IMG/VR virus record: IMGVR_UViG_3300043411_000610
Location: 1 to 64,000 of that record
Length of the DNA: 64,000 bases
Source of the DNA: a virus
Direction: 5' to 3' (one strand)
In this document: positions 8,563 through 52,527 of the stretch, one piece after another
Position numbering within the stretch: the stretch's first letter is position 1
Layout of the letters: the number at the start of each line of letters is the position of its first letter
Program-made: the position numbers and the translations under genes
The notes under the pieces: model-generated
What the model saw: only the letters and a program-made list of their open reading frames with translations
Databases searched by the model: none
Told to the model about the DNA's origin: nothing

Positions 8563-8718
8563 TTAACACTTCCATCGTCTGCGGGCAGCACAGCCTCTAG
8601 TATCTTTACCATCACATCCACCACTCGGTATCCATGCAGATGATCTAGCACAAAAAGATTTTTTACGTGCCCCACCTTCTGGTTGAGGGGCTTTTAGGTT
8701 CGAACCTGTTTCTCTATA
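8563..8718 (-). CDS. 51-codon in-frame extension behind a TGA stop, Cys/Arg-rich (possible readthrough)
   Basis: This frame continues directly after the TGA (8719-8721) of the SLOG gene and ends at TAA 8563-8565. It has no ATG, GTG, TTG or CTG in frame. The peptide contains R-K-K-S-F-C-A-R and ends R-R-R-W-K-C. From memory this resembles the C-terminal pattern (K-S-F-C-A-R ... W-x-C) of small proteins in many marine and T4-like phages. Either the TGA is read through, or an unusual start codon is used, or it is a remnant whose start was lost. Confidence 0.45.
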   Translation of the reverse strand, partial: YRETGSNLKAPQPEGGARKKSFCARSSAWIPSGGCDGKDTRGCAARRRWKC

Positions 8719-14780: not shown

Positions 14781-14856
14781 CCGCATGTGTCTGAATAGGT
14801 ATAGAGACGACCCGATAAGTCGTAATAAAAAGGTGCAAGTCCTTTCGTGCGGACCA
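14781..14856 (+). tRNA. tRNA-Ile(GAT)
   Basis: Full cloverleaf with encoded CCA. Acceptor CCGCATG/CGTGCGG, anticodon stem ACGAC/GTCGT, loop CCGATAA. Position 33 is C, not the near-universal T. The T-loop is TGCAAGT (G at 55). Confidence 0.8.
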
Positions 14857-14865
14857 ATTTTTAAT

Positions 14866-14957
14866 GGGTATGAGGCGTAGCGGGAGTATGTGACGCAGGT
14901 GACTGTAAATCATCAACATAAGAACCATAGCAGATTCGAATTCTGCCATACCCACCA
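14866..14957 (+). tRNA. tRNA-Tyr(GTA)
   Basis: Acceptor GGGTATG/CATACCC, encoded CCA, D-stem GCGT/ACGC, anticodon loop CTGTAAA, 16-nt variable arm as expected for bacterial tRNA-Tyr, canonical T-loop TTCGAAT. Confidence 0.92.
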
Positions 14958-14966
14958 ATTTTTGAA

Positions 14967-15090
14967 AACGTAGTATAAATGTAAAATACGTAGCATAGTA
15001 AGCACACGGGTCCACCGAACGGACTATGTATCCAGTCTCCAGTAGAAATGCTGTAAGCCCGTATGGAGGTTAAAATCCTCTCGTTAGTAA
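14967..15090 (+). ncRNA. unresolved tRNA-like RNA
   Basis: Contains a T-arm-like hairpin GGAGG / TTAAAAT / CCTCT near 15065-15081, a GGTCC/GGACT hairpin with 7-nt loop ACCGAAC near 15010-15026, and an ACGGG/CCCGT long-range pairing. No full cloverleaf could be assigned and no CCA is encoded. Confidence 0.35.
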
Positions 15091-15105
15091 AAAAGAAGAA
15101 AGTAG

Positions 15106-15134
15106 TTGACAAGTAGAAGAAGATAAAGTAATAT
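15106..15134 (+). promoter_or_regulatory. strong sigma70-like promoter inside the tRNA array
   Basis: TTGACA at 15106-15111, 17-bp spacer, TAATAT at 15129-15134. Start near 15141, reading the following RNAs. Confidence 0.85.
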
Positions 15135-15138
15135 AGAA

Positions 15139-15236
15139 GTGCATTAGAACGAGATGTTATCATATGGTCGATATATGATGTTCTGAAACTTGCCACATAT
15201 GGTGGCTTGAGCAGGTTTAAATCCTGCCAATGTAGA
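15139..15236 (+). ncRNA. unresolved tRNA-like RNA with extra hairpins
   Basis: Acceptor-like TGCATTA/CAATGTA (6 of 7 pairs), T-arm GCAGG/CCTGC with loop TTTAAAT, a GCCAC/GTGGC arm like a long variable arm, and a 7-bp hairpin ATCATAT/ATATGAT (loop GGTCGAT) inside AGAAC/GTTCT. The anticodon is not clear. Confidence 0.4.
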
Positions 15237-15249
15237 TAGACCTAGAAAA

Positions 15250-15320
15250 TCCCAGGTAGCACAATTAGGAGAGCATGTTACTCGACAGGTTGAGGGGGGC
15301 AGGACCATCCTTGGGAGCCA
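15250..15320 (+). ncRNA. degenerate tRNA-like RNA
   Basis: Acceptor TCCCAGG/CTTGGGA with encoded GCCA and a D-arm-like GCAC...GAGC, but no regular anticodon arm or T-arm fits the remaining 34 nt. Possibly a decayed tRNA. Confidence 0.35.
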
Positions 15321-15330
15321 AATTTTAAAT

Positions 15331-15416
15331 GCAAGTGTGGGTCAACTGGTTTGGACCAACGGACTTTTAATCCGTGGAGAAATCTTATGTGGGTTCGAGT
15401 CCCACCACTTGCACCA
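15331..15416 (+). tRNA. tRNA-Lys(TTT)
   Basis: Acceptor GCAAGTG/CACTTGC, encoded CCA, D-stem GGTC/GACC, anticodon stem ACGGA/TCCGT with loop CTTTTAA, T-loop TTCGAGT. The variable region is about 13 nt, long for Lys. Confidence 0.92.
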
Positions 15417-15446
15417 AAATTTCTTGTAATAAGATTCGTGCAACAC

Positions 15447-15452
15447 TAAATA
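15447..15452 (+). promoter_or_regulatory. T4-late-like promoter element (TAAATA)
   Basis: TAAATA ends 6 nt before the ATG at 15459 of the homing endonuclease. Confidence 0.5.
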
Positions 15453-15458
15453 AGTTGT

Positions 15459-16484
15459 ATGGCCAAGTGTGAAAATTGTAATGTTGACTTGATAAAAAAT
15501 GAAAAGGGTAAACCTAAGAGGTTTTGTTGTAAAACCTGTAAAGGCAAATATTACCGAGAGTATGGAAGAAAACTTCTAAATTCTGAAGAAATTGATGAAA
15601 TACAGAGATTATATGATACGGGGCTAAGTTTATCACAGATATCCAAAATATCCAAGTATTCAAAAATGTTGTTGTGGAGCCTATCATCTGCAAAGGTTAT
15701 AAAAATAAGAAACCGTGCAGAAGCATCCCGAATATCTAGCACAGGTAAAAAGTTATCACAAGAATCTAAGGATAAAATATCAAAAGCTCGTAAAAAATTC
15801 TTAGAAGAAAATCCAGATAAAGTTCCATATAAATTGAACCATAAATATTTAAAACAATCATTTCCAGAAAAGTATTTTGTTGATTGTTTTGGTGGAAAAT
15901 TTAAACCACAATACCAATTTGGTTCGTATACATTAGATTTTGCGGATATAGAAAATAGACTAGACATTGAAATAGATGGGTGTCAGCATCACTTAGATCC
16001 AAAAATCGTAGAGCACGATATAAAAAGAAATCAATTTTTGAATGAAAATGGGTGGAAGGTATTAAGAATACGGTGGAGCGAATTTAAAAAATCTCAAAAA
16101 GATGAGCAGAAAGAAATAGTAAATACTATTCTTCAAGATAGAATCCCAATTCACCCAGCAATCACCTTTTATCCACATGATTCTTCCATTTCAGATGAAG
16201 CATTCCAACATATTGTGTATAAAAAAGAAAATAAAGTGTGTGATAAATGTGGATTGGTGAACAATAGCAAATATTCAAGTTTTTGTGAAAACTGTATATA
16301 CCAAAACAGGATAAAAATCAAGTGGCCTACAGTCGAGGAAATGACTGAACTTGTTTGGAAAACACCAACAACACAAATAGCAAAAGATATGGGCATATCA
16401 GATAATGCGATAACTAAATTTTGTAGAAAAAATAAAATTGCAAAGCCAGGATGTGGATATTGGCAAAAAATGATTACGAAATAA
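15459..16484 (+). CDS. EDxHD/DUF559-type homing endonuclease with NUMOD3-like repeat
   Basis: 341 residues: N-terminal zinc ribbon (C4, C7, C23/24, C27), a helix-turn-helix-like stretch (about 43-80), a NUMOD3-like segment near 94-114 (S-T-G-K-K-L-S-Q-E-S-K-D-K-I), then a Vsr/DUF559 nuclease core with D160, E171-x-D173, H177/H178 and D187, and W-K-V-L-R-I-R-W near 199-206. A second Cys cluster and an HTH follow. It sits inside the tRNA array as a free-standing mobile element. Likely cuts a site in the array or a neighbouring gene of related phages. Confidence 0.85.
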   Translation: MAKCENCNVDLIKNEKGKPKRFCCKTCKGKYYREYGRKLLNSEEIDEIQRLYDTGLSLSQISKISKYSKMLLWSLSSAKVIKIRNRAEASRISSTGKKLSQESKDKISKARKKFLEENPDKVPYKLNHKYLKQSFPEKYFVDCFGGKFKPQYQFGSYTLDFADIENRLDIEIDGCQHHLDPKIVEHDIKRNQFLNENGWKVLRIRWSEFKKSQKDEQKEIVNTILQDRIPIHPAITFYPHDSSISDEAFQHIVYKKENKVCDKCGLVNNSKYSSFCENCIYQNRIKIKWPTVEEMTELVWKTPTTQIAKDMGISDNAITKFCRKNKIAKPGCGYWQKMITK

Positions 16485-16490
16485 TTTCAT

Positions 16491-16527
16491 AAGTTTTATT
16501 ACAGATTGTAGCTCCATAATAAAACTT
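16491..16527 (+). terminator. long hairpin behind the homing endonuclease
   Basis: Perfect 11-bp inverted repeat AAGTTTTATTA/TAATAAAACTT with a 15-nt loop. No T-run follows, so it may be a processing or stabilising hairpin rather than a terminator. Confidence 0.45.
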
Positions 16528-16546
16528 CAAGTAATAATGTTACTAT

Positions 16547-16575
16547 TTGACAATCACTACAAATGATGTTAAGGT
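16547..16575 (+). promoter_or_regulatory. possible sigma70-like promoter for the second tRNA block
   Basis: TTGACA at 16547-16552 with a weak -10 (TAAGGT at 16570-16575). The about 60 nt that follow, up to 16640, form small hairpins (GCTT/AAGC near 16610-16623) but no assignable tRNA. Confidence 0.45.
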
Positions 16576-16640
16576 TAGGATATTAAAGTCGTGAGAGTCG
16601 ATGGCTTCGATGCAAGCTCGGAGAAATAGAATTTTTAAAT

Positions 16641-16728
16641 TGCAGGATAGTGTAATAGTTAACATATCTGGCTCATAACCAGAAGACGGAAATCGTTTAT
16701 GGTGGTGCAAATCCATCTCCTGCTTCCA
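16641..16728 (+). tRNA. tRNA-Met(CAT), initiator-like
   Basis: Acceptor TGCAGGA/TCCTGCT leaves a T1-T72 mismatch, the hallmark position of initiator tRNAs. Discriminator T, encoded CCA. Anticodon stem TCTGG/CCAGA with loop CTCATAA. The variable region is 17 nt, very long for Met. T-loop TGCAAAT. Initiator identity is inferred from the 1-72 mismatch. Confidence 0.8.
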
Positions 16729-16737
16729 TTTTCAAAA

Positions 16738-16809
16738 GCCTCTAGGTAGGAGAAGTCTCCTAATTAGTTTCATATGCTAATAATAAACGAGCATTACGTT
16801 TTAGAGGCA
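16738..16809 (+). tRNA. tRNA-Met or Ile2 (CAT), non-consensus loops
   Basis: Perfect acceptor GCCTCTA/TAGAGGC. D-arm is TAGGAG/CTCCTA around a 4-nt AAGT loop. Anticodon arm ATTAGT/GCTAAT with loop TTCATAT. T-stem AAACG/CGTTT with loop AGCATTA. The cloverleaf is intact although both loops are non-canonical. No CCA encoded. Confidence 0.65.
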
Positions 16810-16818
16810 CAATTTTAA

Positions 16819-16890
16819 CGGGATGTGGCAGACAAGGAATGCACTTCGTTTGGGGCGAAGCACATGCTGGAGCATTACCAGTCATCCCGA
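16819..16890 (+). tRNA. tRNA-Pro(TGG)
   Basis: Acceptor CGGGATG/CATCCCG, anticodon stem CTTCG/CGAAG with loop TTTGGGG, T-stem GCTGG/CCAGT with loop AGCATTA (shared with the preceding CAT tRNA). No CCA encoded. Confidence 0.85.
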
Positions 16891-16905
16891 AATTTTGTAA
16901 AATGT

Positions 16906-16946
16906 TAGTGGTCCGCAGGATAACCACTAGAGAAAACACCTGCCCA
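16906..16946 (+). ncRNA. H-type pseudoknot RNA ending in CCA
   Basis: TAGTGGT (16906-16912) pairs with ACCACTA (16923-16929). GCAGG in that loop (16915-16919) pairs with CCTGC (16939-16943), directly followed by CCA. It sits between two tRNAs and is too short for a tRNA. Confidence 0.5.
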
Positions 16947-16956
16947 AATTTTTAAT

Positions 16957-17030
16957 GCCCCTATAGTTAATGAATATAACTACGTCCTTTCACGACGTAA
17001 TACCGAGTGTGAGCCTCGGTAGGGGTGCCA
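16957..17030 (+). tRNA. tRNA-Glu(TTC)
   Basis: Acceptor GCCCCTA/TAGGGGT (G1-T72 wobble), encoded CCA, D-stem GTTA/TAAC, anticodon stem ACGTC/GACGT with loop CTTTCAC, T-stem CCGAG/CTCGG with loop TGTGAGC. T at 56 is matched by AA, not GG, in the D-loop. Confidence 0.85.
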
Positions 17031-17040
17031 ATTTCAAAAT

Positions 17041-17157
17041 AACGTGATAGTTTAATTAGACCGTAAAATCGGTAATAACATAGAGTGCGCAATCGAAAGT
17101 TATTAGAACGCCGTCGTCCAGATGGAAATATGGTGCAAATCCAATAAACGTTGCCAT
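17041..17157 (+). ncRNA. unresolved expanded tRNA-like RNA
   Basis: Begins AACGT and ends ACGTT-G-CCA, with a T-arm-like TGG/CCA around TGCAAAT. The 60-nt middle holds ACCG/CGGT and AATAAC/GTTATT hairpins. It may be a tRNA with an inserted segment; no anticodon can be assigned. Confidence 0.35.
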
Positions 17158-17165
17158 TTTTAAAA

Positions 17166-17271
17166 CCTCAAATAGCCTATATTGTTTAAGGCATAATACC
17201 AGACGTGGTAGAGTATTTGATGTGACTTTAAAGCACTAATAATATGCAGGTTAAATTCCTGACTTTGGGGA
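17166..17271 (+). ncRNA. unresolved expanded tRNA-like RNA
   Basis: Acceptor CCTCAAA/TTTGGGG and D-stem GCCT/AGGC are clear. The T-arm CAGG/CCTG has loop TTAAATT. The anticodon region carries AATAC/GTATT around a 13-nt loop plus a second GTG/CAC hairpin, so it is longer than a normal tRNA. Anticodon not assigned. Confidence 0.4.
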
Positions 17272-17283
17272 CCGATTTTTAAT

Positions 17284-17361
17284 GGATCATAAGCTCAAGT
17301 AGATAGGCGTCTGTCTTCCAAACAGAAAATATAGTCACTGCAAATGTGACATGATCCTCCA
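17284..17361 (+). tRNA. tRNA-Gly(TCC)
   Basis: Acceptor GGATCAT/ATGATCC, encoded TCCA, anticodon stem TCTGT/ACAGA with loop CTTCCAA, T-stem GTCAC/GTGAC with loop TGCAAAT. Confidence 0.88.
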
Positions 17362-17371
17362 ATTTTTAATT

Positions 17372-17490
17372 TGATGTTATAACGGTTTAATCCGTGAGAA
17401 AATGATGGACTAAAGAGGCTCTAATCCCGACAGTAGTGAGAGTTGTTAACGACATCAACTCGTCCACCTGAACAAAAGTTCGTAACATCA
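17372..17490 (+). ncRNA. unresolved large cloverleaf-like RNA
   Basis: Closed by an 8-bp TGATGTTA/TAACATCA stem. Inside are ACGG/CCGT (loop TTTAAT), TGGAC/GTCCA, GAGTTG/CAACTC and GAAC/GTTC (loop AAAA). The arms sit in tRNA order but the central arm is far too long. No anticodon assigned. Confidence 0.35.
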
Positions 17491-17513
17491 CTGGCTACAT
17501 GAATTGACATGTG

Positions 17514-17546
17514 AAAGGGGAATAAAGTAGTCCCCTCAATTTTTAA
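17514..17546 (+). terminator. rho-independent terminator of the first tRNA block
   Basis: AGGGGA/TCCCCT hairpin with a 9-nt loop followed by CAATTTTT. Confidence 0.65.
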
Positions 17547-17547
17547 T

Positions 17548-17576
17548 TTGACAAACAACAATACATAGTATAACAT
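17548..17576 (+). promoter_or_regulatory. sigma70-like promoter, leaderless geometry
   Basis: TTGACA at 17548-17553, 17-bp spacer, TAACAT at 17571-17576, then 5 nt to the ATG at 17582. Confidence 0.75.
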
Positions 17577-17581
17577 ACCAC

Positions 17582-17824
17582 ATGAACGCAATAAAAATAA
17601 CAGACTTCGTAAATAAAGACAATCTATGCCATTTTCAATTTTATAGAAAAGGATTGATGTATTATTCTGTAAAGAAGATTCAATCCATTGATCACTATAT
17701 TTTTCCGGTAGAAATTTCGGATTTGGCAGATGCAACGATCAACAATAGTGAGAAAAGTTTGATGATGATGCTATATATTCGCAAGGCAATTGAAGATAAT
17801 ACACTGACTAAATTTGATGAATAA
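17582..17824 (+). CDS. hypothetical protein upstream of HNH gene
   Basis: 80 residues, start at the predicted transcript start. The C-terminal part is helical. Its stop overlaps the HNH start by 11 nt, so the two are probably coupled. No family recognised. Confidence 0.55.
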   Translation: MNAIKITDFVNKDNLCHFQFYRKGLMYYSVKKIQSIDHYIFPVEISDLADATINNSEKSLMMMLYIRKAIEDNTLTKFDE

Positions 17825-18437
17825 ACAACAAGTATTGGCCTTGAATCGGTCATTTTATCCAATTGGCATAAAAAATTGGACTAAGGCAATGGTAGATATT
17901 TTCAGTGGTGCGGCCTATCCGGTTGATGTTTATTATGGAACTAAAGAAGATGGTTCGCCAGATTTGGAAAATATTGAGACCTTTAATGTGGTTAAAGATT
18001 GGAAAGAATGGATTGAATTACCAATCAGACCATATGATGAATATGTTAATACTCCATCCAGAACATTTAGAGTTCCACCTGTGGTAGTATGTTCGGCCTT
18101 TGATCGAATTGTTTTTAAAAATGTTCAGTTTCCCACAAAAGCAAATATCTGGAAAAGAGATAAATATATTTGTCAATTTAGTGGTAAAAAGTTGACCAGA
18201 GAGGAGTTATCGGTGGATCATTTGCTTCCTTCATCTAGGGGTGGTAAAAACACATGGGAAAATTTAGTAACATGTGATCGTGCGCTTAACGTATGGAAAG
18301 CAGACAGAACACCTAAAGAATGTGGTTTGAATCTTATAAATAGACCAACAAAACCCACAAACGGAATGGTATTTGATTTTCTGAGAAAGGAATGGGAAAT
18401 TTTCCTTTATGGTGGAAAATCAGAATTTGGTGAATAG
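17814..18437 (+). CDS. HNH endonuclease
   Basis: 207 residues. The HNH core lies near 119-165: C-Q-F-S-G-K-K-L, then V-D-H-L-L-P-S-S-R-G-G, then N-L-V-T-C-D-R-x-x-N-V-W-K. The first 110 residues match the family in which an HNH fold follows a recognition region. A second ATG at 17817 is an alternative start. Placed inside the tRNA array, so probably a homing-type element, although it could serve the phage. Confidence 0.85.
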   Translation: MMNKQQVLALNRSFYPIGIKNWTKAMVDIFSGAAYPVDVYYGTKEDGSPDLENIETFNVVKDWKEWIELPIRPYDEYVNTPSRTFRVPPVVVCSAFDRIVFKNVQFPTKANIWKRDKYICQFSGKKLTREELSVDHLLPSSRGGKNTWENLVTCDRALNVWKADRTPKECGLNLINRPTKPTNGMVFDFLRKEWEIFLYGGKSEFGE

Positions 18438-18445
18438 TTTATTTT

Positions 18446-18512
18446 GCAACAATAGTTTAATGGAAAACACTACAAGTCGTAGGATTCGGGTAATCAAGCC
18501 CTGATTGTTGCA
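18446..18512 (+). ncRNA. short tRNA-like cloverleaf
   Basis: Acceptor GCAACAA/TTGTTGC and D-stem GTTT/AAAC (loop AATGGA) are perfect. The anticodon arm CTAC/GTAG has only a 5-nt loop (AAGTC), and the T-arm TCGGG/CCTGA has a 9-nt loop. Anticodon unclear. Confidence 0.45.
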
Positions 18513-18522
18513 CCTTTTTAAT

Positions 18523-18595
18523 GGCTTCTTAGCACAATTGGTAATGCACGGAATTTGTAATTCTGAGATTATCGGTTCGAATCCGATAGAAGCCT
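18523..18595 (+). tRNA. tRNA-Thr(TGT)
   Basis: Textbook cloverleaf: acceptor GGCTTCT/AGAAGCC, D-loop with TTGGT, anticodon stem CGGAA/TTCTG with loop TTTGTAA, T-loop TTCGAAT. No CCA encoded. Confidence 0.95.
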
Positions 18596-18600
18596 GATTT

Positions 18601-18678
18601 TTGATAGTATAGAAATATAAGTGTGTTCCGAAAGACTGATGATCTGGCGTTTCGGTAAATTCGCAATCATCCTATCAA
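18601..18678 (+). ncRNA. pseudoknotted RNA candidate
   Basis: TTGATAG (18601-18607) pairs with CTATCAA (18672-18678). Inside, CCGAAA (18628-18633) pairs with TTTCGG (18650-18655), and GATGAT in that loop (18638-18643) pairs with ATCATC (18666-18671), an H-type pseudoknot. Confidence 0.5.
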
Positions 18679-18690
18679 ATTAGTTTTCCA

Positions 18691-18718
18691 TTGACAAAGT
18701 TTGGTGTTGATGTATAAT
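18691..18718 (+). promoter_or_regulatory. sigma70-like promoter, leaderless geometry
   Basis: TTGACA at 18691-18696, 16-bp spacer, consensus TATAAT at 18713-18718, then 7 nt to the ATG at 18726. Confidence 0.88.
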
Positions 18719-18725
18719 GGGACAT

Positions 18726-19142
18726 ATGAATGAACAGTTAAAACAGCAATTTTTAGAAGGCCAGATTTCCATTAAATTGGTTTGTGTGGAGGACAAGGAA
18801 TGGATGATTTCTGAGTTTCCAGAGTTGGTTTTGGCAAATAAATCATTTGATAGTTTTTATCCATATGCAACGGTTCAATGTTATGAGACGGGTGAAAAAC
18901 GACTTACCTGTTTTACTGGGCCGAAAAACAAAATATTTTTTGAGTCGGTTGAGGAATTTCAAACAGCAGATTATAATGAGCATAAAACCTTTGATATTGA
19001 AGTTAAAAAGTGTAAATCTGATGGACAGAGTGTGAAGGTCCACAAAAATGATGAATTTGTATATTTTGGAATCTACAGAATAGAGGTCAGGAACTTTAAT
19101 GAGTTTATAAAAGAATTTAATATGTCGGTGGCAGAAAAGTGA
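18726..19142 (+). CDS. hypothetical protein overlapping a tRNA gene
   Basis: 138 residues from the ATG at 18726. An in-frame ATG at 18717 overlaps the -10 box and would lie upstream of the transcript start. Beta-rich, with a Lys-rich second half. No family recognised. The last 21 nt overlap the tRNA-Trp gene, so processing of that tRNA would cut this mRNA. Confidence 0.6.
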   Translation: MNEQLKQQFLEGQISIKLVCVEDKEWMISEFPELVLANKSFDSFYPYATVQCYETGEKRLTCFTGPKNKIFFESVEEFQTADYNEHKTFDIEVKKCKSDGQSVKVHKNDEFVYFGIYRIEVRNFNEFIKEFNMSVAEK

Positions 19143-19204
19143 TGCAGCAGTCTCCAAAACTGCGACGAAAGTCTAAGTGGGCGCGATACCTACCCGACAT
19201 GCCA
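19122..19204 (+). tRNA. tRNA-Trp(CCA)
   Basis: Acceptor ATGTCGG/CCGACAT, encoded GCCA, D-stem GCA/TGC, anticodon stem GCAGT/ACTGC with loop CTCCAAA, a variable region carrying a GAC/GTC mini-hairpin, T-stem GTGGG/CCTAC with loop CGCGATA. The 5' end lies inside the preceding ORF. Confidence 0.85.
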
Positions 19205-19218
19205 GTTTAGTTAGTTTT

Positions 19219-19290
19219 GCGGTTATCGTATAAAAGTTATTACATCAGATTGTCGATCTGAATATTGGGTTGCAATTACCCATAACCGCG
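19219..19290 (+). tRNA. tRNA-Asp(GTC)
   Basis: Acceptor GCGGTTA/TAACCGC with the expected discriminator G, anticodon stem TCAGA/TCTGA with loop TTGTCGA, T-stem TGGGT/ACCCA with loop TGCAATT. No full CCA encoded. Confidence 0.88.
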
Positions 19291-19300
19291 CATTTTATAT

Positions 19301-19373
19301 TGCCCTTTGGTGTAATTGGTTAGCACCGGAGATTTTGATTCTTCTAGTCCAGATTCGAGTTCTGGGAGGGCAG
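19301..19373 (+). tRNA. tRNA-Gln(TTG)
   Basis: Acceptor TGCCCTT/GAGGGCA (T1-A72, usual for Gln), D-stem GTGT/GCAC, anticodon stem GGAGA/TCTTC with loop TTTTGAT, T-loop TTCGAGT. Confidence 0.92.
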
Positions 19374-19384
19374 CTTTGATTTAA

Positions 19385-19456
19385 GGCTGTGTGGCAGAGA
19401 GGTTAGTGCATTGGATTGAAATCCCAACAACCCACGTTCGATTCGTGGCACAGCCA
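19385..19456 (+). tRNA. tRNA-Phe(GAA)
   Basis: Acceptor GGCTGTG/CACAGCC, D-loop with GAGGT, anticodon loop TTGAAAT (one A-C mismatch closes the loop), T-stem with loop TTCGATT, discriminator A. Probable partner of the phage PheRS at 9234-10247. Confidence 0.88.
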
Positions 19457-19467
19457 GTTTTTCTAAT

Positions 19468-19543
19468 GTTCCTGTGGTGTAATGGATTAGCATAAATCGC
19501 TTCTAACGATTCGGAAAAAGTTCAAATCTTTTCAGGAATACCA
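19468..19543 (+). tRNA. tRNA-Arg(TCT)
   Basis: Acceptor GTTCCTG/CAGGAAT, encoded ACCA, D-stem GTGT/GCAT, anticodon stem AATCG/CGATT with loop CTTCTAA, T-loop TTCAAAT. Confidence 0.93.
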
Positions 19544-19550
19544 ATTTAAT

Positions 19551-19629
19551 GGATGTGTATAACCTCACGCTACGAACGTGTAGAAAGTTTAATAGATACA
19601 TGCGGGTGCAAGTCCTGTCACATTCACCA
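19551..19629 (+). tRNA. tRNA-like, possible Arg(ACG), no D-arm seen
   Basis: Acceptor GGATGTG/CACATTC with encoded ACCA and T-arm GCGGG/CCTGT (loop TGCAAGT) are clear. An anticodon-like hairpin CACG/CGTG with loop CTACGAA follows the acceptor after only about 8 nt, so no D-arm fits, and about 20 nt separate it from the T-arm. The anticodon reading is uncertain. Confidence 0.5.
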
Positions 19630-19639
19630 AATTTTCAAT

Positions 19640-19716
19640 GCCCCTATAGCCGAATTGGTATAGGCATATGATTTAGGATCATAAATTTGCAGATTCGAGT
19701 TCTGCTAGGGGCACCA
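19640..19716 (+). tRNA. tRNA-Leu(TAG) with short variable loop
   Basis: Acceptor GCCCCTA/TAGGGGC, encoded ACCA, D-stem GCC/GGC with TTGGT, anticodon stem TATGA/TCATA with loop TTTAGGA, 5-nt variable loop, T-stem GCAGA/TCTGC with TTCGAGT. Bacterial Leu tRNAs normally have a long variable arm. Confidence 0.88.
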
Positions 19717-19726
19717 ATTTCAATAT

Positions 19727-19804
19727 GAGTTAGTGGCGGAACGGTATACGCGGTAGTCTCAAGAACTATTTTCAATGAGAGTTCGAATCTCTCCTAACTT
19801 ACCA
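19727..19804 (+). tRNA. tRNA-Leu(CAA) with short variable loop
   Basis: Acceptor GAGTTAG/CTAACTT, encoded ACCA, D-stem GCG/CGC, anticodon stem GTAGT/ACTAT with loop CTCAAGA, 7-nt variable loop, T-stem GAGAG/CTCTC with TTCGAAT. Again no long variable arm. Confidence 0.87.
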
Positions 19805-19812
19805 ATTTAGAT

Positions 19813-19884
19813 GGGTTTTGAAGCATTTTGGTGATGCACTCGCTTGTGGAGCGATATAACTGAGTTCGATTCTCAGTAGAACCC
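19813..19884 (+). tRNA. tRNA-His(GTG), first copy
   Basis: An encoded G-1 pairs with C73 (8-bp acceptor). D-stem GCAT/ATGC, anticodon loop TTGTGGA, T-stem CTGAG/CTCAG with TTCGATT. The G-1 makes Thg1 dispensable for this tRNA if RNase P keeps it. Confidence 0.88.
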
Positions 19885-19895
19885 CAGTTTTTAAT

Positions 19896-19969
19896 GTATC
19901 CTTGGGTGAGTGGTTTATTACCTATCGCTGTGACCGACAAAACTTCGGATCGTAACCAAATAAGGGAAC
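19896..19969 (+). tRNA. tRNA-His(GTG), second copy
   Basis: Acceptor GTATCCTT/AAGGGAAC (one A-A mismatch) again forms G-1:C73. D-stem GTGA/TTAC, anticodon loop CTGTGAC, T-arm TTCGG/CCAAA (one mismatch) with loop ATCGTAA. More diverged than the first copy. Confidence 0.7.
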
Positions 19970-19981
19970 CAATTCAATAAT

Positions 19982-20058
19982 ACACATAGACCGAGCTAGT
20001 GACCGGAACGCACTGCAAATGCGTAAAATGAAGAGTGCGATCCTTATTATGTGTTCCA
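19982..20058 (+). tRNA. tRNA-Cys(GCA)
   Basis: Acceptor ACACATA/TATGTGT, encoded TCCA, D-stem CCG/CGG, anticodon stem ACGCA/TGCGT with loop CTGCAAA. The T-arm is weak, with loop TGCGATC. Confidence 0.8.
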
Positions 20059-20065
20059 ATTTAAA

Positions 20066-20150
20066 AGATCATTGAATATCTGGTGATATAACATACTTGG
20101 AAAGTATGTCGCACCCTCAAAGGTGTAGAGTTCGATTCTCTAATGATCTG
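20066..20150 (+). tRNA. tRNA-Ser(GGA)
   Basis: Acceptor AGATCAT/ATGATCT, discriminator G, anticodon stem CATAC/GTATG with loop TTGGAAA, long variable arm CACC/GGTG, T-stem TAGAG/CTCTA with TTCGATT. Confidence 0.92.
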
Positions 20151-20174
20151 CATCAGTTATATAAATATTATTAT

Positions 20175-20268
20175 GGAAGCGATCCGGCCAGATGAGGAGA
20201 TAGTCTTGAAAACTATTAAAACCGTAATCAATCGTGTTTTGTGAGTGCGAGTCTCACCGCTTCCTCCA
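20175..20268 (+). tRNA. tRNA-Ser(TGA)
   Basis: Acceptor GGAAGCG/CGCTTCC, encoded TCCA, anticodon stem ATAGT/ACTAT with loop CTTGAAA, long variable arm of about 24 nt, T-stem GTGAG/CTCAC with loop TGCGAGT. Confidence 0.88.
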
Positions 20269-20274
20269 TTTTTT

Positions 20275-20361
20275 GGAAGATGAAATTGAAAGGTTTCAAT
20301 GTTGATTTGCTAAATCAAACGAGCGGCCAAACCGTTTGCGTTTCGAATACGCCATCTTCCT
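20275..20361 (+). tRNA. tRNA-Ser(GCT)
   Basis: Acceptor GGAAGAT/ATCTTCC, D-stem ATTG/CAAT with AAGGT, anticodon stem TTGAT/ATCAA with loop TTGCTAA, long variable arm CGG/CCG, T-stem GCGT/ACGC with TTCGAAT. Last tRNA of the array. Confidence 0.9.
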
Positions 20362-20369
20362 CATTTTTA

Positions 20370-20843: not shown

Positions 20844-21509
20844 ATGGCCGGACTACAAGCATCTCTAAAGACAGCAGCACAAATTTTCAAACAACACGAT
20901 TTTTCTAGACAGCACCAGTTGCGCATTCTAGATCTTTTGAATGTTCCTGATTATGTTAGAAACGAAATAATTGACCTAGAAGGACGTGTTTTTTTAACAA
21001 TTTCTTCAGTTCCTCAAAAATCTATTTCTACAATGGAGGTGCCATTCTTAGGCTTTAAGTTTAGGTATCCTAACATGGTAGAATATCCTGGAACATGGCA
21101 AATTACTTTCTCAACTCCAGCAGATTATCTTGTTAGGAATGCTATTGAGCGTTGGATGAATGATACTGTGAATGAGCAGACTCTATGTGGTGTTGGTGTT
21201 CCTTGTGAATCAACTGCAATCGACTTGGCATTGCTCGGTCCTAGTTGTAATGTTGTTCGTGGATATAGATTAATCGGTGTATGGCCATCAGAAATTGGTG
21301 AAGTTGCATATGATCAATCTTCAACCGAACTAACAACCTTTACAGTGACCTTCACATATCAACGATGGGAACCAATCAATATCAATGATACTGCAATAGA
21401 AGAAGGTAATCAAAATCAAATTGATTCTGTATATGAATCATTTGCATCTACTATTGCCGCAGGAGTTGGCACAAGTTGTAATGGTAAGACTGTGGTTCCA
21501 CGAGTTTAA
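20844..21509 (+). CDS. tail tube protein, T4 gp19-like
   Basis: 221 residues. The core P-F-x-G-x-K-F-R-Y-P-N, then W-Q-I-T-F-S-T-P-A-D-Y-L-V-R-N-A-I-E-R-W, and a final T-T-F-T-V-T-F-T-Y-Q-R-W match the gp19 family that stacks as hexameric rings inside a contractile sheath. It indicates a myovirus. Late-type promoter upstream, strong terminator downstream. It is isolated from other tail genes in this window. Confidence 0.88.
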   Translation: MAGLQASLKTAAQIFKQHDFSRQHQLRILDLLNVPDYVRNEIIDLEGRVFLTISSVPQKSISTMEVPFLGFKFRYPNMVEYPGTWQITFSTPADYLVRNAIERWMNDTVNEQTLCGVGVPCESTAIDLALLGPSCNVVRGYRLIGVWPSEIGEVAYDQSSTELTTFTVTFTYQRWEPININDTAIEEGNQNQIDSVYESFASTIAAGVGTSCNGKTVVPRV

Positions 21510-27127: not shown

Positions 27128-27351
27128 AGGCCATATTTACCGGTAAAGGTGGATGGGAAGGGGAATTAGACCGTGCAAAGAATACATTTGAAGTAGGGAA
27201 ATCATATACAATTAAAAAAGGATATCGTGGTCGATATGATTCAACTCTGATGTTTGAAGAACTTCCAGGATATTGGAATTCTGTTTTATTTGAGTTTGAT
27301 GAAGATAAACTTGAATGGGAATACACATATTATATTGATTATGAAAATTGA
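27124..27351 (+). CDS. small hypothetical protein
   Basis: 75 residues, acidic, beta-rich, perhaps an SH3-like fold (F-E-V-G-K-S-Y-T-I-K-K-G-Y). It overlaps the clamp-loader start by 11 nt and is probably coupled to it. Confidence 0.6.
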   Translation: MKAIFTGKGGWEGELDRAKNTFEVGKSYTIKKGYRGRYDSTLMFEELPGYWNSVLFEFDEDKLEWEYTYYIDYEN

Positions 27352-28246
27352 AGAAGTTTGGGTAGAAAAATATCGTCCAAAAACCCTGGACGAAATGGTC
27401 TTATCAGAAAAGAATAGGCAGTATTTTGCTTCGATCAAGTCGATCACCAATAATTACCTGTTTTTGGGAACACCCGGAACAGGTAAGAATACGATGGCAT
27501 ATTATTTGCGTGATAAATTTGCGCCTGATTCATACCTATATTTGAATGCTAGTTCAGAATCCGGTATTGAGACAGTTCGTAATAAAATCACGGACTTTGT
27601 ATCAACTACTGCATTTGACGGAAATAATAAATTGGTGATTCTATCAGAGTTTGATGGATTTTCTAATGCGGCACAAGGAGCATTAAGAGAAATCATGGAA
27701 CAATACTTAGAAACCGTTCGATTTATTTTGACGGCCAATCATCAACATAAAATTATTACTGCCATTCAGTCTAGATGTGGCGAACCGTTTTTCTTCAATT
27801 CAGATATTGAGGATATTACCAAACGGATTAAACATATTCTGAATGCAGAAAAAATTTGTAATTGGAAAGATCATAGTGCGGACATTGTTAAAATTATTAA
27901 GCAATATGCACCTGATTTACGAAAGATCACTAACGTATTACAACGGTGTTTTGAGACTGGTAAATTTATACCGTTGAAGATTGATAGCAGTGAATTGGTA
28001 GAAAAGATTTGGCAAATGGTTAGAGATAAAACCGATCCGTTTGTAATTCGTAAATTCGTGATTGACAATGAACAGGAATTTGGTAATGATTACCACACGT
28101 TGATGCGTCAAATGTTTGATTGTTCAGTCGTAGATAATAATGTAGGTGCCTGTCTACAAATTACAGAATATATGTATAGGAATTCTATGGTGATGGATAA
28201 CGAAGTTAATTTTACAGGTTTGATCATAAATTTGGTAAAAAAATGA
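27341..28246 (+). CDS. sliding clamp loader ATPase (T4 gp44-like)
   Basis: 301 residues from the ATG at 27341. Begins V-W-V-E-K-Y-R-P-K-T-L-D-E, typical of clamp-loader subunits. Walker A G-T-P-G-T-G-K-N-T at 43-51, Walker B-like L-V-I-L-S-E-F-D, sensor 1 L-T-A-N, and S-R-C in Q-S-R-C-G-E-P. It should load the phage sliding clamp on DNA with ATP hydrolysis. Walker B has S-E-F-D rather than D-E-x-D, as a diverged copy. A frame extension up to 27254 lacks family similarity. Confidence 0.92.
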   Translation: MKIEEVWVEKYRPKTLDEMVLSEKNRQYFASIKSITNNYLFLGTPGTGKNTMAYYLRDKFAPDSYLYLNASSESGIETVRNKITDFVSTTAFDGNNKLVILSEFDGFSNAAQGALREIMEQYLETVRFILTANHQHKIITAIQSRCGEPFFFNSDIEDITKRIKHILNAEKICNWKDHSADIVKIIKQYAPDLRKITNVLQRCFETGKFIPLKIDSSELVEKIWQMVRDKTDPFVIRKFVIDNEQEFGNDYHTLMRQMFDCSVVDNNVGACLQITEYMYRNSMVMDNEVNFTGLIINLVKK

Positions 28247-48900: not shown

Positions 48901-49166
48901 GGATGATTTAACGGATTCATATAATCATCAATTTCTTTTTGTGACATTTTAAACTCGTATGAAATTCCTCCTTCGCCCTTATTAGTATATTTTACATATT
49001 TCGGTTCACAAGAAATGCGCCTGTTTTTTCCGTGTTGATCTATTAAGTATCCTGCTACAAATGGATTTCTAGACCACATACCATCATCTTCTGAAGTTAC
49101 GATAAAAACACTACCTTTTTTGAATGGATAACAGTCTTCGATTAATTCAACTTTTTGATTAATCAT
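48897..49166 (-). CDS. hypothetical protein
   Basis: 89 residues, beta-rich (V-E-L-I-E-D-C-Y-P-F-K-K-G-S-V-F). ATGA overlap with NrdB and probably co-transcribed with it. No family recognised. Confidence 0.6.
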   Translation of the reverse strand: MINQKVELIEDCYPFKKGSVFIVTSEDDGMWSRNPFVAGYLIDQHGKNRRISCEPKYVKYTNKGEGGISYEFKMSQKEIDDYMNPLNHP

Positions 49167-50227
49167 AGCGTAAATCCTGAAAATTTGTTTAGATCAATGG
49201 ATGTATCACGGCTACCTTTGATGTAATCTGTTAGAGGCTTTTCTTGGGGAAGATCATGTGTTTTGCCCGCATCCAGATATGAATCTAACCATCCACCAAT
49301 AGGATTATGTTTAATATCATAGATTTTTTTATATCCCAAAGATTGTAGCCTATTGTTTGCAATCCATTCAATATAACCACCTAATGTATTAGGATTCAAA
49401 CCCAAAAGTCCACCTTCTGAAAAAATATAGTCCGCCCATTTTTTTTCATTGTCTACGGCTAGACCGTATGCATCATAAATGCGCTGTTCGTTTTCGCGAA
49501 TGATGTGTGTAAAGCCCTCATCTTCTCGCTCTTTCCAGTTTTTGATAACATTCTGTGTGATCCCTATATGATCAGCTTCATCTCGTTTGATTAGTTTGAT
49601 GATATCAGCATTGCCAGTCATTTTTCCTTTATAGCCGAAAAAGAAAGAACATGCAAATGACACGTAGAAAATAACACCTTCCATGATCTGCATATGTAAC
49701 ATAGAGTTGAATAAATCCTGTTTCCTGTCGCCTGTATCATTATTGAGAAGTTTGTCGAATGACGATTTAATTTCTGTCATACGTTCTTGTAAATGAATAT
49801 CTTGAGACATATCTTCGAAGAATTTGTGTGGATCACGGCGAAGATTTTCCAAAATCCAATTATATGAATCACTATGAATGCTTTCTTCAAAAAAGCTCCA
49901 GGTGTTCAAACAATAGGATAATTCATTCAATGAACAGTGCTTTTTCATTTCGTCAATAGACCGGGAAAGGAAAGAATCTCCTGCTGTTTGAAATGATAGA
50001 TTTTTTTCAAAAATGAATCGCTCTTCTTTTGTCAATTGTTCATAATCTTTTCGATCATTCACCAATGGAATTTCATCTGGTTGCCAATACTGACCTCTCT
50101 GTTTTTTGAAAAGGTCCACAAATTTGGGATATTTTACATCTGTAAGATTCAGAATACCTAGAGGTTCACCAAAGAACATGGGTTGTTCACTATTGATGCG
50201 CTTATTAAAGTTTAATACTGTTTTCAT
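49163..50227 (-). CDS. nrdB: ribonucleotide reductase class Ia, small subunit
   Basis: 354 residues. Di-iron ligands sit in the usual helices: F-I-F-E-K-N, E-E-S-I-H-S-D-S-Y, E-G-V-I-F-Y and R-D-E-A-D-H-I. F-F-F-G-Y near the radical site. It generates the tyrosyl radical that NrdA uses to reduce ribonucleotides for phage DNA synthesis. Eight nt downstream of nrdA. Confidence 0.95.
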   Translation of the reverse strand: MKTVLNFNKRINSEQPMFFGEPLGILNLTDVKYPKFVDLFKKQRGQYWQPDEIPLVNDRKDYEQLTKEERFIFEKNLSFQTAGDSFLSRSIDEMKKHCSLNELSYCLNTWSFFEESIHSDSYNWILENLRRDPHKFFEDMSQDIHLQERMTEIKSSFDKLLNNDTGDRKQDLFNSMLHMQIMEGVIFYVSFACSFFFGYKGKMTGNADIIKLIKRDEADHIGITQNVIKNWKEREDEGFTHIIRENEQRIYDAYGLAVDNEKKWADYIFSEGGLLGLNPNTLGGYIEWIANNRLQSLGYKKIYDIKHNPIGGWLDSYLDAGKTHDLPQEKPLTDYIKGSRDTSIDLNKFSGFTL

Positions 50228-50235
50228 ATTTTATT

Positions 50236-52527
50236 TTAGAGTGTGCAGCCACCTCCGATAGAGCAGGTTGCATATCGGTCTTCTGATTCTTTTTCTGTTT
50301 CTACAGTGTCGTCTTTGGCTCCCTTGGTTTTTGCATAATATATAGAAGGAACACCCAACTTATATGATAGTAAAATATCTCCAATAACTACAGAATCTGG
50401 TAGTTTTTTATCAGGATATTTGTTGAAATCATAATAATGATTCATAGAAACACTCATATCAGTGAATTTTATCATCAATGAATATAGTTCAATGATGTGT
50501 CTATTATCAAAGGTGAAAGCATATGTATATCGAGGTTTCCATTTGGCAATGTTTGGGACCAATACAGGTAGACGGTTAGACTTGGATGATTTATAGACCA
50601 GTGGCTCCATAGGAGGTTCCACCCCATTAGTAGAACATTGAATAATTGAGCTACTGTCGCACGGCATCAGGCATGATAGCGTGTTGTTTCGCATACCATG
50701 AGTCACAATTTCGGTTCGTAACCATTCCCAATCAAGATTCAGTTTATTTGGATAAACTGAATCCACATCTTTTTTATAAGTGTCAATTGGGAGAATACCC
50801 TTACTATATTTTGTTTTATCAAAATATTCACATTTACCCTTTTCTTTGGCCAGATTAACACTTGCTTTAATTAGGTTAAATTGAATTTTCTCAAATAAAT
50901 CATGGGTTAGTTGTCTAGCAGAATCTTCAATAAACGAAGAATTGTTTTTTGCCAACCATGCGGCATAATTAGTCACTCCCACACCAATGCTGCGATTTTT
51001 CTGTGCAAAGTTTTTAGCAGATTCATTAAAATAATCCTGAACATCAATAAGTTCATCGAGACCTCGAACGACCAAATCACATGCTTCTTCAATTTCTTCA
51101 TCAGAATTAAGATTTAGAACATTTAGTGCCGATAACACACATACACCAATCAATCCATCTGAACCATCAATCCTCTGCATTGGTTCCAATAAGTGTAGAA
51201 CCTCTACGCAGAGGTTAGTAAAATTTACTATACCATCCCATGAACTATGATTAGTAGCATGGTCCACAAATAACATATAAAGCCTTCCAGTCTCAATTCG
51301 TTCTTTTACAAAAAGGCTCATCAGACTAGATGCTGTAATAACTTTCTTTTTGATTCCTTTTTTCTTTTCGTATTTTACATATAAATCATCGAATTCTGAT
51401 GATCCAAATGCATCATATAGTTCAGTCGTTTCGTTTGGATCAAATAGCGTAATATTTTCGTTTTTCAGGAATCGTTCAAAAAACAGTTTAGAAGATGCAA
51501 CCACATAATCTAGTTGACGAACACGATTACTATCGGTCCCCCCATTATTTTTCAATTGAATGAAATCTTCGATTTCATAATGGAAGAAATGACAGGTGAT
51601 GGTTCCGCCACCACCTCTGGTTCCTTGACTAGCTGCCTTCACATTACTTTCAATACATTTTATCCATGGTATAATTCCCAGATGTGGAATAGTTCCGTTG
51701 CGAACAGACGACCCGATAGAACGAACACGACTCATATTGACACCAATACCGTAAGAATTACACGTCGCCATTCCTACACTTGTAAGCATGGCATAAAGAC
51801 TCTCCTTAGTGTCTGCGGTATCAATTAAGCAGCAAGAGCTATAACTGTTTGTGAGTCCTCTACAATTAGCTTGCAGAGGTGTAGGCGAACTAACCTTATG
51901 TTTGGTGTTGAAGTCAAAGAATTTTTTGATATATTTCAGACGCTTAGAACCTTCATAGTTCTGGAAGAGACGCATACCCATTAATGCATATGCAAAGGAC
52001 GGAGTTTCAAACAATTCACCTGTGATTTTATTTTTGGCCAGATATTTATCCACTAATTGTTGGAGGCCCGCATAGACGAAATTATAATCCCTATCATGGT
52101 TAATAAATTCATCAATTTTATTGATTTCTTTTTCAGTATAATTTTCTAAAAAGGCTGGGGTATAGACCTTATTATCAATATTTTTACGAATAATATCAAT
52201 TAGTTTTGGTGGGTTTTTTCCGCCCCAAACATCTTTTCTAATTTTGGTATTCAACAATCGAGCAGCCACAATTTGATAGTCTGGCTTAGCCTCACTTATG
52301 AGATTGACCGCACTATCAATTAGGCAGTCGTGTATTTCTTTGGTTGTTATGTTATTCTTAAAGAATAATTTAGCATTGATTTCAATGGTGCTCGGTTCTA
52401 CGTCCTTCAATCCTTCACATGCCCATTCAACCATTTTGTTGATTTTTGATAAATCTAATTTCTCTATTGTTCCATCCCGTTTTTTTACTGTTATTTCCAT
52501 AAAGTTTTTGCTCACCATGTCCGCCAT
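50236..52527 (-). CDS. nrdA: ribonucleotide reductase class Ia, large subunit
   Basis: 763 residues. ATP-cone at about 12-100, then the catalytic barrel with N-S-Y-S-S-C-C near 229-235, the N-L-C-V-E triad, and N-T-L-S-C-L-M-P. The tail ends C-S-I-G-G-G-C-T-L with the redox Cys pair. It reduces NDPs to dNDPs. All key Cys are present; no intein or intron seen. A TAAATA element lies 14 nt upstream. Confidence 0.96.
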   Translation of the reverse strand: MADMVSKNFMEITVKKRDGTIEKLDLSKINKMVEWACEGLKDVEPSTIEINAKLFFKNNITTKEIHDCLIDSAVNLISEAKPDYQIVAARLLNTKIRKDVWGGKNPPKLIDIIRKNIDNKVYTPAFLENYTEKEINKIDEFINHDRDYNFVYAGLQQLVDKYLAKNKITGELFETPSFAYALMGMRLFQNYEGSKRLKYIKKFFDFNTKHKVSSPTPLQANCRGLTNSYSSCCLIDTADTKESLYAMLTSVGMATCNSYGIGVNMSRVRSIGSSVRNGTIPHLGIIPWIKCIESNVKAASQGTRGGGGTITCHFFHYEIEDFIQLKNNGGTDSNRVRQLDYVVASSKLFFERFLKNENITLFDPNETTELYDAFGSSEFDDLYVKYEKKKGIKKKVITASSLMSLFVKERIETGRLYMLFVDHATNHSSWDGIVNFTNLCVEVLHLLEPMQRIDGSDGLIGVCVLSALNVLNLNSDEEIEEACDLVVRGLDELIDVQDYFNESAKNFAQKNRSIGVGVTNYAAWLAKNNSSFIEDSARQLTHDLFEKIQFNLIKASVNLAKEKGKCEYFDKTKYSKGILPIDTYKKDVDSVYPNKLNLDWEWLRTEIVTHGMRNNTLSCLMPCDSSSIIQCSTNGVEPPMEPLVYKSSKSNRLPVLVPNIAKWKPRYTYAFTFDNRHIIELYSLMIKFTDMSVSMNHYYDFNKYPDKKLPDSVVIGDILLSYKLGVPSIYYAKTKGAKDDTVETEKESEDRYATCSIGGGCTL

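Follow-up and report, generated by a model that had tools for sequence, protein, structure and literature searches.

Covariation at the tRNA elbow points to an A18-G55 contact in a phage tRNA array, in other viruses and in some bacteria

An array of transfer RNA (tRNA) genes on the IMG/VR virus record IMGVR_UViG_3300043411_000610 appears to combine two kinds of elbow, the contact between D-loop and T-loop. The array occupies 14781-20364 of the window, meaning the whole stretch analysed here, bases 1-64000 of this 90,677-base linear record, on which T4-like genes are present. Using a cloverleaf scanner for which canonical loop bases were not required, 22 tRNAs could be folded, of which twelve carry U55-C56 in the T-loop, nine G55-C56 and one, tRNA-Glu, G55-U56, the G55 tRNAs spanning nine isotypes. 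Where base 55 is G, base 18 can be read as A, and in the sequences compared this A18-G55 covariation is general across isotypes, viruses and cells. To judge from sequence, the RNAs of the array are very probably decoding tRNAs with an alternative elbow.

By common teaching, nearly all tRNAs have G18, U55 and C56. The usual elbow has G18 inserted between T-loop bases 57 and 58, where it touches pseudouridine-55, and G19 paired with C56.

Covariation of the D-loop and T-loop

The rule examined was that base 18 is A when base 55 is G and is otherwise G, with base 19 being the Watson-Crick complement of base 56. Under a lenient test, in which the predicted dinucleotide was accepted anywhere in the D-loop past its first base, the rule held in 25 of 25 RNAs (the 22 array tRNAs, a tRNA-like RNA at 17166 and two tRNAs from the right end of the record), a Watson-Crick 19-56 pair likewise being found in 25/25. 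When the T-loops were shuffled among the 25 RNAs 100,000 times, the mean was 14.4 and the maximum 23, and none of the 100,000 shuffles reached 25. Ten of the 22 folded tRNAs lack the G18 with U55 of the canonical elbow. The initial annotation had assigned GG to the U55-C56 set (Tyr, Lys, Thr, Gln, Phe, Arg-TCT, both Leu, both His, Ser-GGA and Ser-GCT), AA to the G55-U56 of Glu (TGTGAGC / ATGAATA) and GT to the T55-A56 of the RNA at 17166 (TTAAATT / ATATTGTTTA), all of which agreed with the loop strings of the window. For its G55-C56 set with AG (Ile, both CAT, Pro, Gly, Trp, Asp, Cys and Ser-TGA) the bases are as it stated, but the AGG in the D-loops of Ile and Pro can be taken as either AG or GG; six of the other seven are without GG, and Ser-TGA has it only at the first two bases of the loop. 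A coupled change at 54/58 had gone unreported: A54/U58 occurs in CAT-16738 and Pro (both AGCATTA) and in His-2 (ATCGTAA), and C54 in Trp (CGCGATA). The members of the array are as follows.

14781..14856 (+), tRNA-Ile(GAT): T-loop TGCAAGT (G55); D-loop AATAGGTA, with AGG readable as AG or GG
14866..14957 (+), tRNA-Tyr(GTA): T-loop TTCGAAT; GG in D-loop
15331..15416 (+), tRNA-Lys(TTT): T-loop TTCGAGT; D-loop AACTGGTTTG; G18-U55
16641..16728 (+), tRNA(CAT)-1: T-loop TGCAAAT; D-loop AATAGTTA; A18-G55
16738..16812 (+), tRNA(CAT)-2: T-loop AGCATTA; D-loop AGAAGTCT; A18-G55, A54/U58
16819..16893 (+), tRNA-Pro(TGG): T-loop AGCATTA; D-loop ACAAGGA (AGG); A54/U58
16957..17030 (+), tRNA-Glu(TTC): T-loop TGTGAGC; D-loop ATGAATA; A18-G55, A19-U56
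17166..17275 (+), tRNA-like RNA: T-loop TTAAATT; D-loop ATATTGTTTA (GT); G18-U55, U19-A56
17284..17361 (+), tRNA-Gly(TCC): T-loop TGCAAAT; D-loop AAGTAGAT; A18-G55
18523..18598 (+), tRNA-Thr(TGT): T-loop TTCGAAT; D-loop AATTGGTA; U55-C56
19122..19204 (+), tRNA-Trp(CCA): T-loop CGCGATA; D-loop AAAAGTG; A18-G55, C54-A58
19219..19293 (+), tRNA-Asp(GTC): T-loop TGCAATT; D-loop AAAAGTTA; A18-G55
19301..19376 (+), tRNA-Gln(TTG): T-loop TTCGAGT; D-loop AATTGGTTA; U55-C56
19385..19459 (+), tRNA-Phe(GAA): T-loop TTCGATT; D-loop AGAGGTTA; U55-C56
19468..19543 (+), tRNA-Arg(TCT): T-loop TTCAAAT; D-loop AATGGATTA; U55-C56
19640..19716 (+), tRNA-Leu(TAG): T-loop TTCGAGT; D-loop AATTGGTAT; U55-C56
19727..19804 (+), tRNA-Leu(CAA): T-loop TTCGAAT; D-loop AACGGTAT; U55-C56
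19814..19887 (+), tRNA-His(GTG)-1: T-loop TTCGATT; D-loop TTTGGTG; U55-C56
19892..19971 (+), tRNA-His(GTG)-2: T-loop ATCGTAA (A54/U58); D-loop AGTGGTTTATT (GG); imperfect fold, start placed between 19892 and 19898
19982..20058 (+), tRNA-Cys(GCA): T-loop TGCGATC; D-loop GCTAGTGA; A18-G55
20066..20153 (+), tRNA-Ser(GGA): T-loop TTCGATT; D-loop TCTGGTGA; U55-C56
20175..20268 (+), tRNA-Ser(TGA): T-loop TGCGAGT; D-loop GCCAGATG; A18-G55
20275..20364 (+), tRNA-Ser(GCT): T-loop TTCGAAT; D-loop GAAAGGTTT; U55-C56

A search with the tail tube protein for close relatives of the phage returned distant matches only (35% identity or less, in loci without a called tRNA), and two other proteins gave no match; the comparison was therefore made across unrelated viruses. 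A scanner that found no matches in the shuffled sequence of 80 loci was run over all viral loci and yielded 1,608 distinct tRNAs, which clustering at 80% identity reduced to 1,289. In this form the test of positions 18/19 against 55/56 proposed at the outset gave 1,264 of 1,289 tRNAs obeying the rule, compared with a maximum of 956 in 2,000 shuffles. Of the T-loops with neither UC, CC nor GC at 55-56, 44 of 45 follow the rule (at most 30 after shuffling): UU at 55-56 goes with GA at 18-19 in 27/28, UA with GU in 7/7, UG with GC in 5/5, GG with AC in 2/2, and GU with AA and GA with AU in 1/1 each. The 19-56 pair, which had been suggested to persist as G-C, A-U or U-A, does so, with replacements that include A19-U56, U19-A56 and also C19-G56. 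At 18-55, the unambiguous viral D-loops comprise G-U 784, A-G 167, G-C 107, A-U 10, A-C 3 and G-G 0, which bears out the suggested change from G-U to A-G in unrelated viruses as well as in the window phage. Of the 204 viral G55-C56 D-loops, just 3 have GG in an allowed position. In loci selected without regard to it, G55 is uncommon (4 of 382 tRNAs).

A pattern scan gave the same picture with the D-loop bases 16-20 left free and G53 T54 x55 C56 R57 A58. T60 C61, T8, A14, R15, A21, Y32, T33, R37 and CCA fixed, IMG/VR being scanned once per base at 55. The G55, U55 and C55 scans are samples, and among the matches listed AG was present in 95/95 distinct well-formed G55 tRNAs (one D-loop, AGGTAGGA, reading GG as well as AG), and GG in 114/114 U55 and 91/92 C55 tRNAs; base R57 was A in 72/95 of the G55 tRNAs versus 19/76 of the U55 tRNAs. 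A55 gave 7 matches altogether, 1 of them well-formed, and G55-U56 gave 10 with a single well-formed one, which is A18-A19. The G55 class covers more than 20 anticodons. In GTDB genomes, the 90 tRNAs with the G55 pattern divide into AG 83, GG 5 and other 2, so that the switch from G-U to A-G extends to cells. A lineage-wide switch of tRNA-Phe in Omnitrophota was considered and rejected, with GG and U55 in 15 of 16 matching genomes and AG and G55 in one.

The pair 54-58 also covaries in these sequences, as U-A, A-U and G-G. With both positions left free, 1,182 distinct tRNAs gave U-A 1,094, A-U 42, G-G 26, A-A 10, C-A 6 and four others, the sum of A-U and G-G (68) comparing with at most 9 after shuffling. 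In tRNAs with A-U or G-G, base 60 is mostly A in place of a pyrimidine, and the 18/19 rule holds in 84 of 88 tRNAs whose 54-58 is not U-A.

In four IMG/VR contigs (L168, L107, L151 and L203), most or all tRNAs, of which L168 has about 20, are G55 with AG, and many isotypes are included; beside the L168 array lie frames that by eye resemble phage head genes (terminase-like, portal-like and S49-peptidase-like). No isolate phage carrying the G55 class was found among six reached by BLAST with single tRNAs and G55-rich arrays, and in these six and two Nostoc plasmids, plasmids having been searched with one tRNA, the T-loop is TTCRA in 109 of 110 folded tRNAs. A plasmid of Nostoc sp. PCC 7524 (L614) has one tRNA (GAT), at 8587-8661, with T-loop GGCAGTA (G54/G58, G55) and AG, the rest of its array being canonical.

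Evidence on decoding came from Mycoplasma sp. SG1, represented by a chromosome record of 622,852 bases (L223 / G001) with 28 tRNA matches, in which each anticodon was found once except CAT. For Asp, Glu and Gln the sole tRNA genes detected in it are A18-G55, and these tRNAs must decode, unless a tRNA gene was missed; decoding by the A18-G55 class is supported by this gene content. The copies of the window phage would, on the preferred reading, be made, charged and used. The rule holds in 24 of the 27 SG1 tRNAs scanned (shuffle maximum 22). U19-A56 is found in Trp-CCA, Gly-TCC and Leu-TAG, C19-G56 in Asn and A19-U56 in Ile, so that many elbow replacements are combined with A18-G55 in one tRNA set. 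Among 149 genomes of its phylum, SG1 alone matches the G55 pattern.

A candidate elbow and its precedents

The sequence U55-C56-R57-A58 forms a UNR turn (the UNRA U-turn), and G55-C56-R57-A58 is of the GNRA kind. In the proposed elbow, the latter would make a GNRA-type turn instead of the U-turn, with A18 occupying the G18 slot and pairing in trans with G55, probably in sheared form (A Hoogsteen edge, G sugar edge). The result would be a composite GNRA fold, its A supplied by the D-loop, in which G19-C56 would be retained or swapped for A-U, U-A or C-G by changes on both sides, and the closing pair 54-58 would vary separately as U-A, A-U or G-G. Coordinated change across 1,264 of the 1,289 viral tRNAs left by clustering speaks for a folded elbow under selection. 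Together with the sole genes of SG1, it also lends support to the earlier contention that such coordination marks functional tRNAs.

By analogy, the A18-G55 pair is likely to have the geometry seen in the UGNRA T-loops of riboswitches. In UGNRA T-loops, the triloop G and an A contacting it from outside commonly yield a composite GNRA tetraloop (PMC2258182), and the UGAAA T-loops of the FMN riboswitch accept an intercalated A (PMC3764141). This class, also termed the type R1 lonepair triloop and represented in TPP and FMN riboswitches (PMC2258182, PMC3764141), shares with the present tRNAs the U-G-N-R-A sequence and an outside A for the slot between its fourth and fifth bases; known from riboswitches and other RNAs, it would here stand in place of the tRNA's own elbow. 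In the window U54-G55-N-R-A58 is present in Ile, CAT-1, Gly, Asp, Cys, Ser-TGA and Glu, and CAT-2, Pro and Trp deviate from UGNRA at position 54 or 58.

With the canonical elbow (G18-pseudouridine 55, G19-C56, U54-A58; PMC4810234, PMC7912444), the proposed one shares the cloverleaf, the Watson-Crick 19-56 pair and, as expected, mutual intercalation, but its 18-55 pair is A-G without U55, and some tRNAs also replace 19-56 and 54-58. Pseudouridine-55 has been termed universally conserved (PMC4810234); as the initial annotation pointed out, it cannot form at a G, and A18-G55 tRNAs would lack both it and Gm18. The non-proteinogenic tRNA-Gly of Staphylococcus (PMC9976931) is likewise altered at conserved positions, but acts outside translation, whereas the present class extends over many isotypes and supplies the only tRNAs detected for Asp, Glu and Gln in SG1. 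The tRNA-Pyl and type II mitochondrial tRNAs (PMC7609411) are also without G18-G19 and T-psi-C; in these the D-T contact has disappeared or been remodelled, whereas a matched replacement would keep it here within a normal cloverleaf. Dense arrays are known from cyanobacterial plasmids (Anabaena trn operon, PMC10272220), and some Nostoc tRNAs are A18-G55 (L219, L226 and others), the two Nostoc plasmid arrays scanned being otherwise canonical.

No description of an A18-G55 tRNA was found in the open-access literature searched, and an earlier account in subscription papers is possible. The work likeliest to be relevant is that of the Steinberg laboratory, which reportedly selected D/T-loop variants in vivo. 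Nature appears to have run a compensatory-mutation experiment repeatedly, in which G-U, G-C and A-G are tolerated at 18-55, four Watson-Crick pairs at 19-56 and U-A, A-U and G-G at 54-58. One elbow contact would thus be exchangeable for another without loss of the tRNA, as seen in the sequences of many viruses and some bacteria, and the real need for the canonical bases becomes open to testing for each of TruB, TrmA, TrmH, EF-Tu, RNase P and the ribosome.

Function and origin of the switch

That G18-G19 was misplaced by the alignment, base 18 being unchanged, is extremely improbable: AGG is present in the Ile and Pro D-loops, two of nine in the window, but GG is missing from six of the other seven and nearly always from an allowed position in the viral census (3/204). 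Misalignment was rejected as an explanation on the ground that most G55 D-loops are without GG. Decaying or non-decoding RNAs, comparable to the cell-wall tRNA-Gly of staphylococci, are a less far-fetched though still quite unlikely reading; some stretches of the array have no tRNA fold, and staphylococcal non-proteinogenic tRNAs escape EF-Tu (PMC9976931), but decay would not preserve coordinated changes at 18/55, 19/56 and 54/58, nor does it suit a class with more than 20 anticodons that includes the sole SG1 tRNAs for Asp, Glu and Gln. The window G55 tRNAs, of nine isotypes and in a phage, also depart from the glycine and cell-wall association of the staphylococcal tRNA-Gly. Certain points do weigh against decoding tRNAs with an alternative elbow. 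The literature searched contained nothing on the structure, expression or charging of any A18-G55 tRNA, the segments without a tRNA fold imply that some array genes are possibly decaying, and, for want of a close relative of the phage in the viral collection, the array cannot be traced across relatives. Exceptions amount to 25 of 1,289 viral tRNAs, 5 GG and 2 other of 90 cellular G55 tRNAs and 3 of 27 in SG1, and kinship is only partly controlled by the 80% identity clustering.

Drift and shielding have been weighed as reasons for the switch, not as alternatives to the elbow mechanism. The leading evolutionary reading, on balance favoured and of which the mechanism is independent, is near-neutral drift to another fit state, which would be reached through AGG D-loops, with U55 changing to G55 without an unfit step. 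An AGG D-loop offers either AG or GG at 18-19 and is present in 120 of 1,212 viral U55-C56 D-loops; Ile and Pro of the window combine G55 with AGG, and the tRNA-Phe of two Omnitrophota genomes, G165 (AGTAGGTA/TTCGATT) and G154 (AGGTAGTA/TGCAAGT), differ in just this way. AGG is, however, left in only 3 of 204 viral G55-C56 tRNAs, and the wholly switched arrays look like more than chance, which leaves room for selection. One form of selection, that phage tRNAs drop U55, G18 and sometimes U54 so that host enzymes or elbow-reading tRNA-cutting defences miss them, is doubtful. G55 is found in 14/14 (L168), 10/10 (L107), 6/6 (L151) and 9/11 (L203) strictly called tRNAs, and G55 tRNAs cluster by contig (statistic 63 versus a shuffle maximum of 32), a clustering inflated by the many contigs picked for having a G55 tRNA. 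The switch also occurs in housekeeping genes of free cells, which have no need of a shield (SG1 and one Omnitrophota tRNA-Phe), and no elbow-cutting nuclease was identified. It is similarly a slim prospect that in some viruses the entire tRNA set has gone over to a second, self-consistent elbow code (A18-G55, frequently joined by A54-U58 or G54-G58), which would give tRNAs accepted by the ribosome and unseen by host enzymes or defences that read G18, U54 or U55.

Detection and surroundings of the array

Standard tRNA finders under-call the G55 class. ARAGORN reported 12 tRNAs in the array, comprising 9 of the 12 of the U55-C56 class and 3 of the 10 with G55, and the gathering score of Rfam RF00005 was reached by 14 array matches and two at the right end, the array tRNAs beyond these being folded by the cloverleaf scanner only. 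Given this under-calling, public annotation probably hides the class.

A relaxed cloverleaf fold at 15006, 15130, 15246, 17041, 17166, 17385, 17440, 18446 and 18606 gave no tRNA. The RNA at 17166 has a hairpin-like insertion before its CTTTAAA loop and no normal tRNA fold. Within 17030-17540, longer segments at 17041, 17166 and 17385 have tRNA-like ends or T-arms together with insertions. The stretch 18446-18512 is an Rfam tRNA call (31.9 bits) with an anticodon loop of only about 5 bases by eye, and 19548-19630 has acceptor-like ends, a T-loop TGCAAGT and a CTACGAA loop (Arg-ACG-like) with no clear D-arm. The other features of the record are listed below.

15459-16484: HNH-type endonuclease gene interrupting the tRNA array
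17814-18437: HNH-type endonuclease gene interrupting the tRNA array
20844-21509: tail tube gene, T4-like
27254-28246: clamp loader gene, T4-like
49163-52527: ribonucleotide reductase gene, T4-like
88683 and 89215: two ordinary tRNAs near the right end of the record

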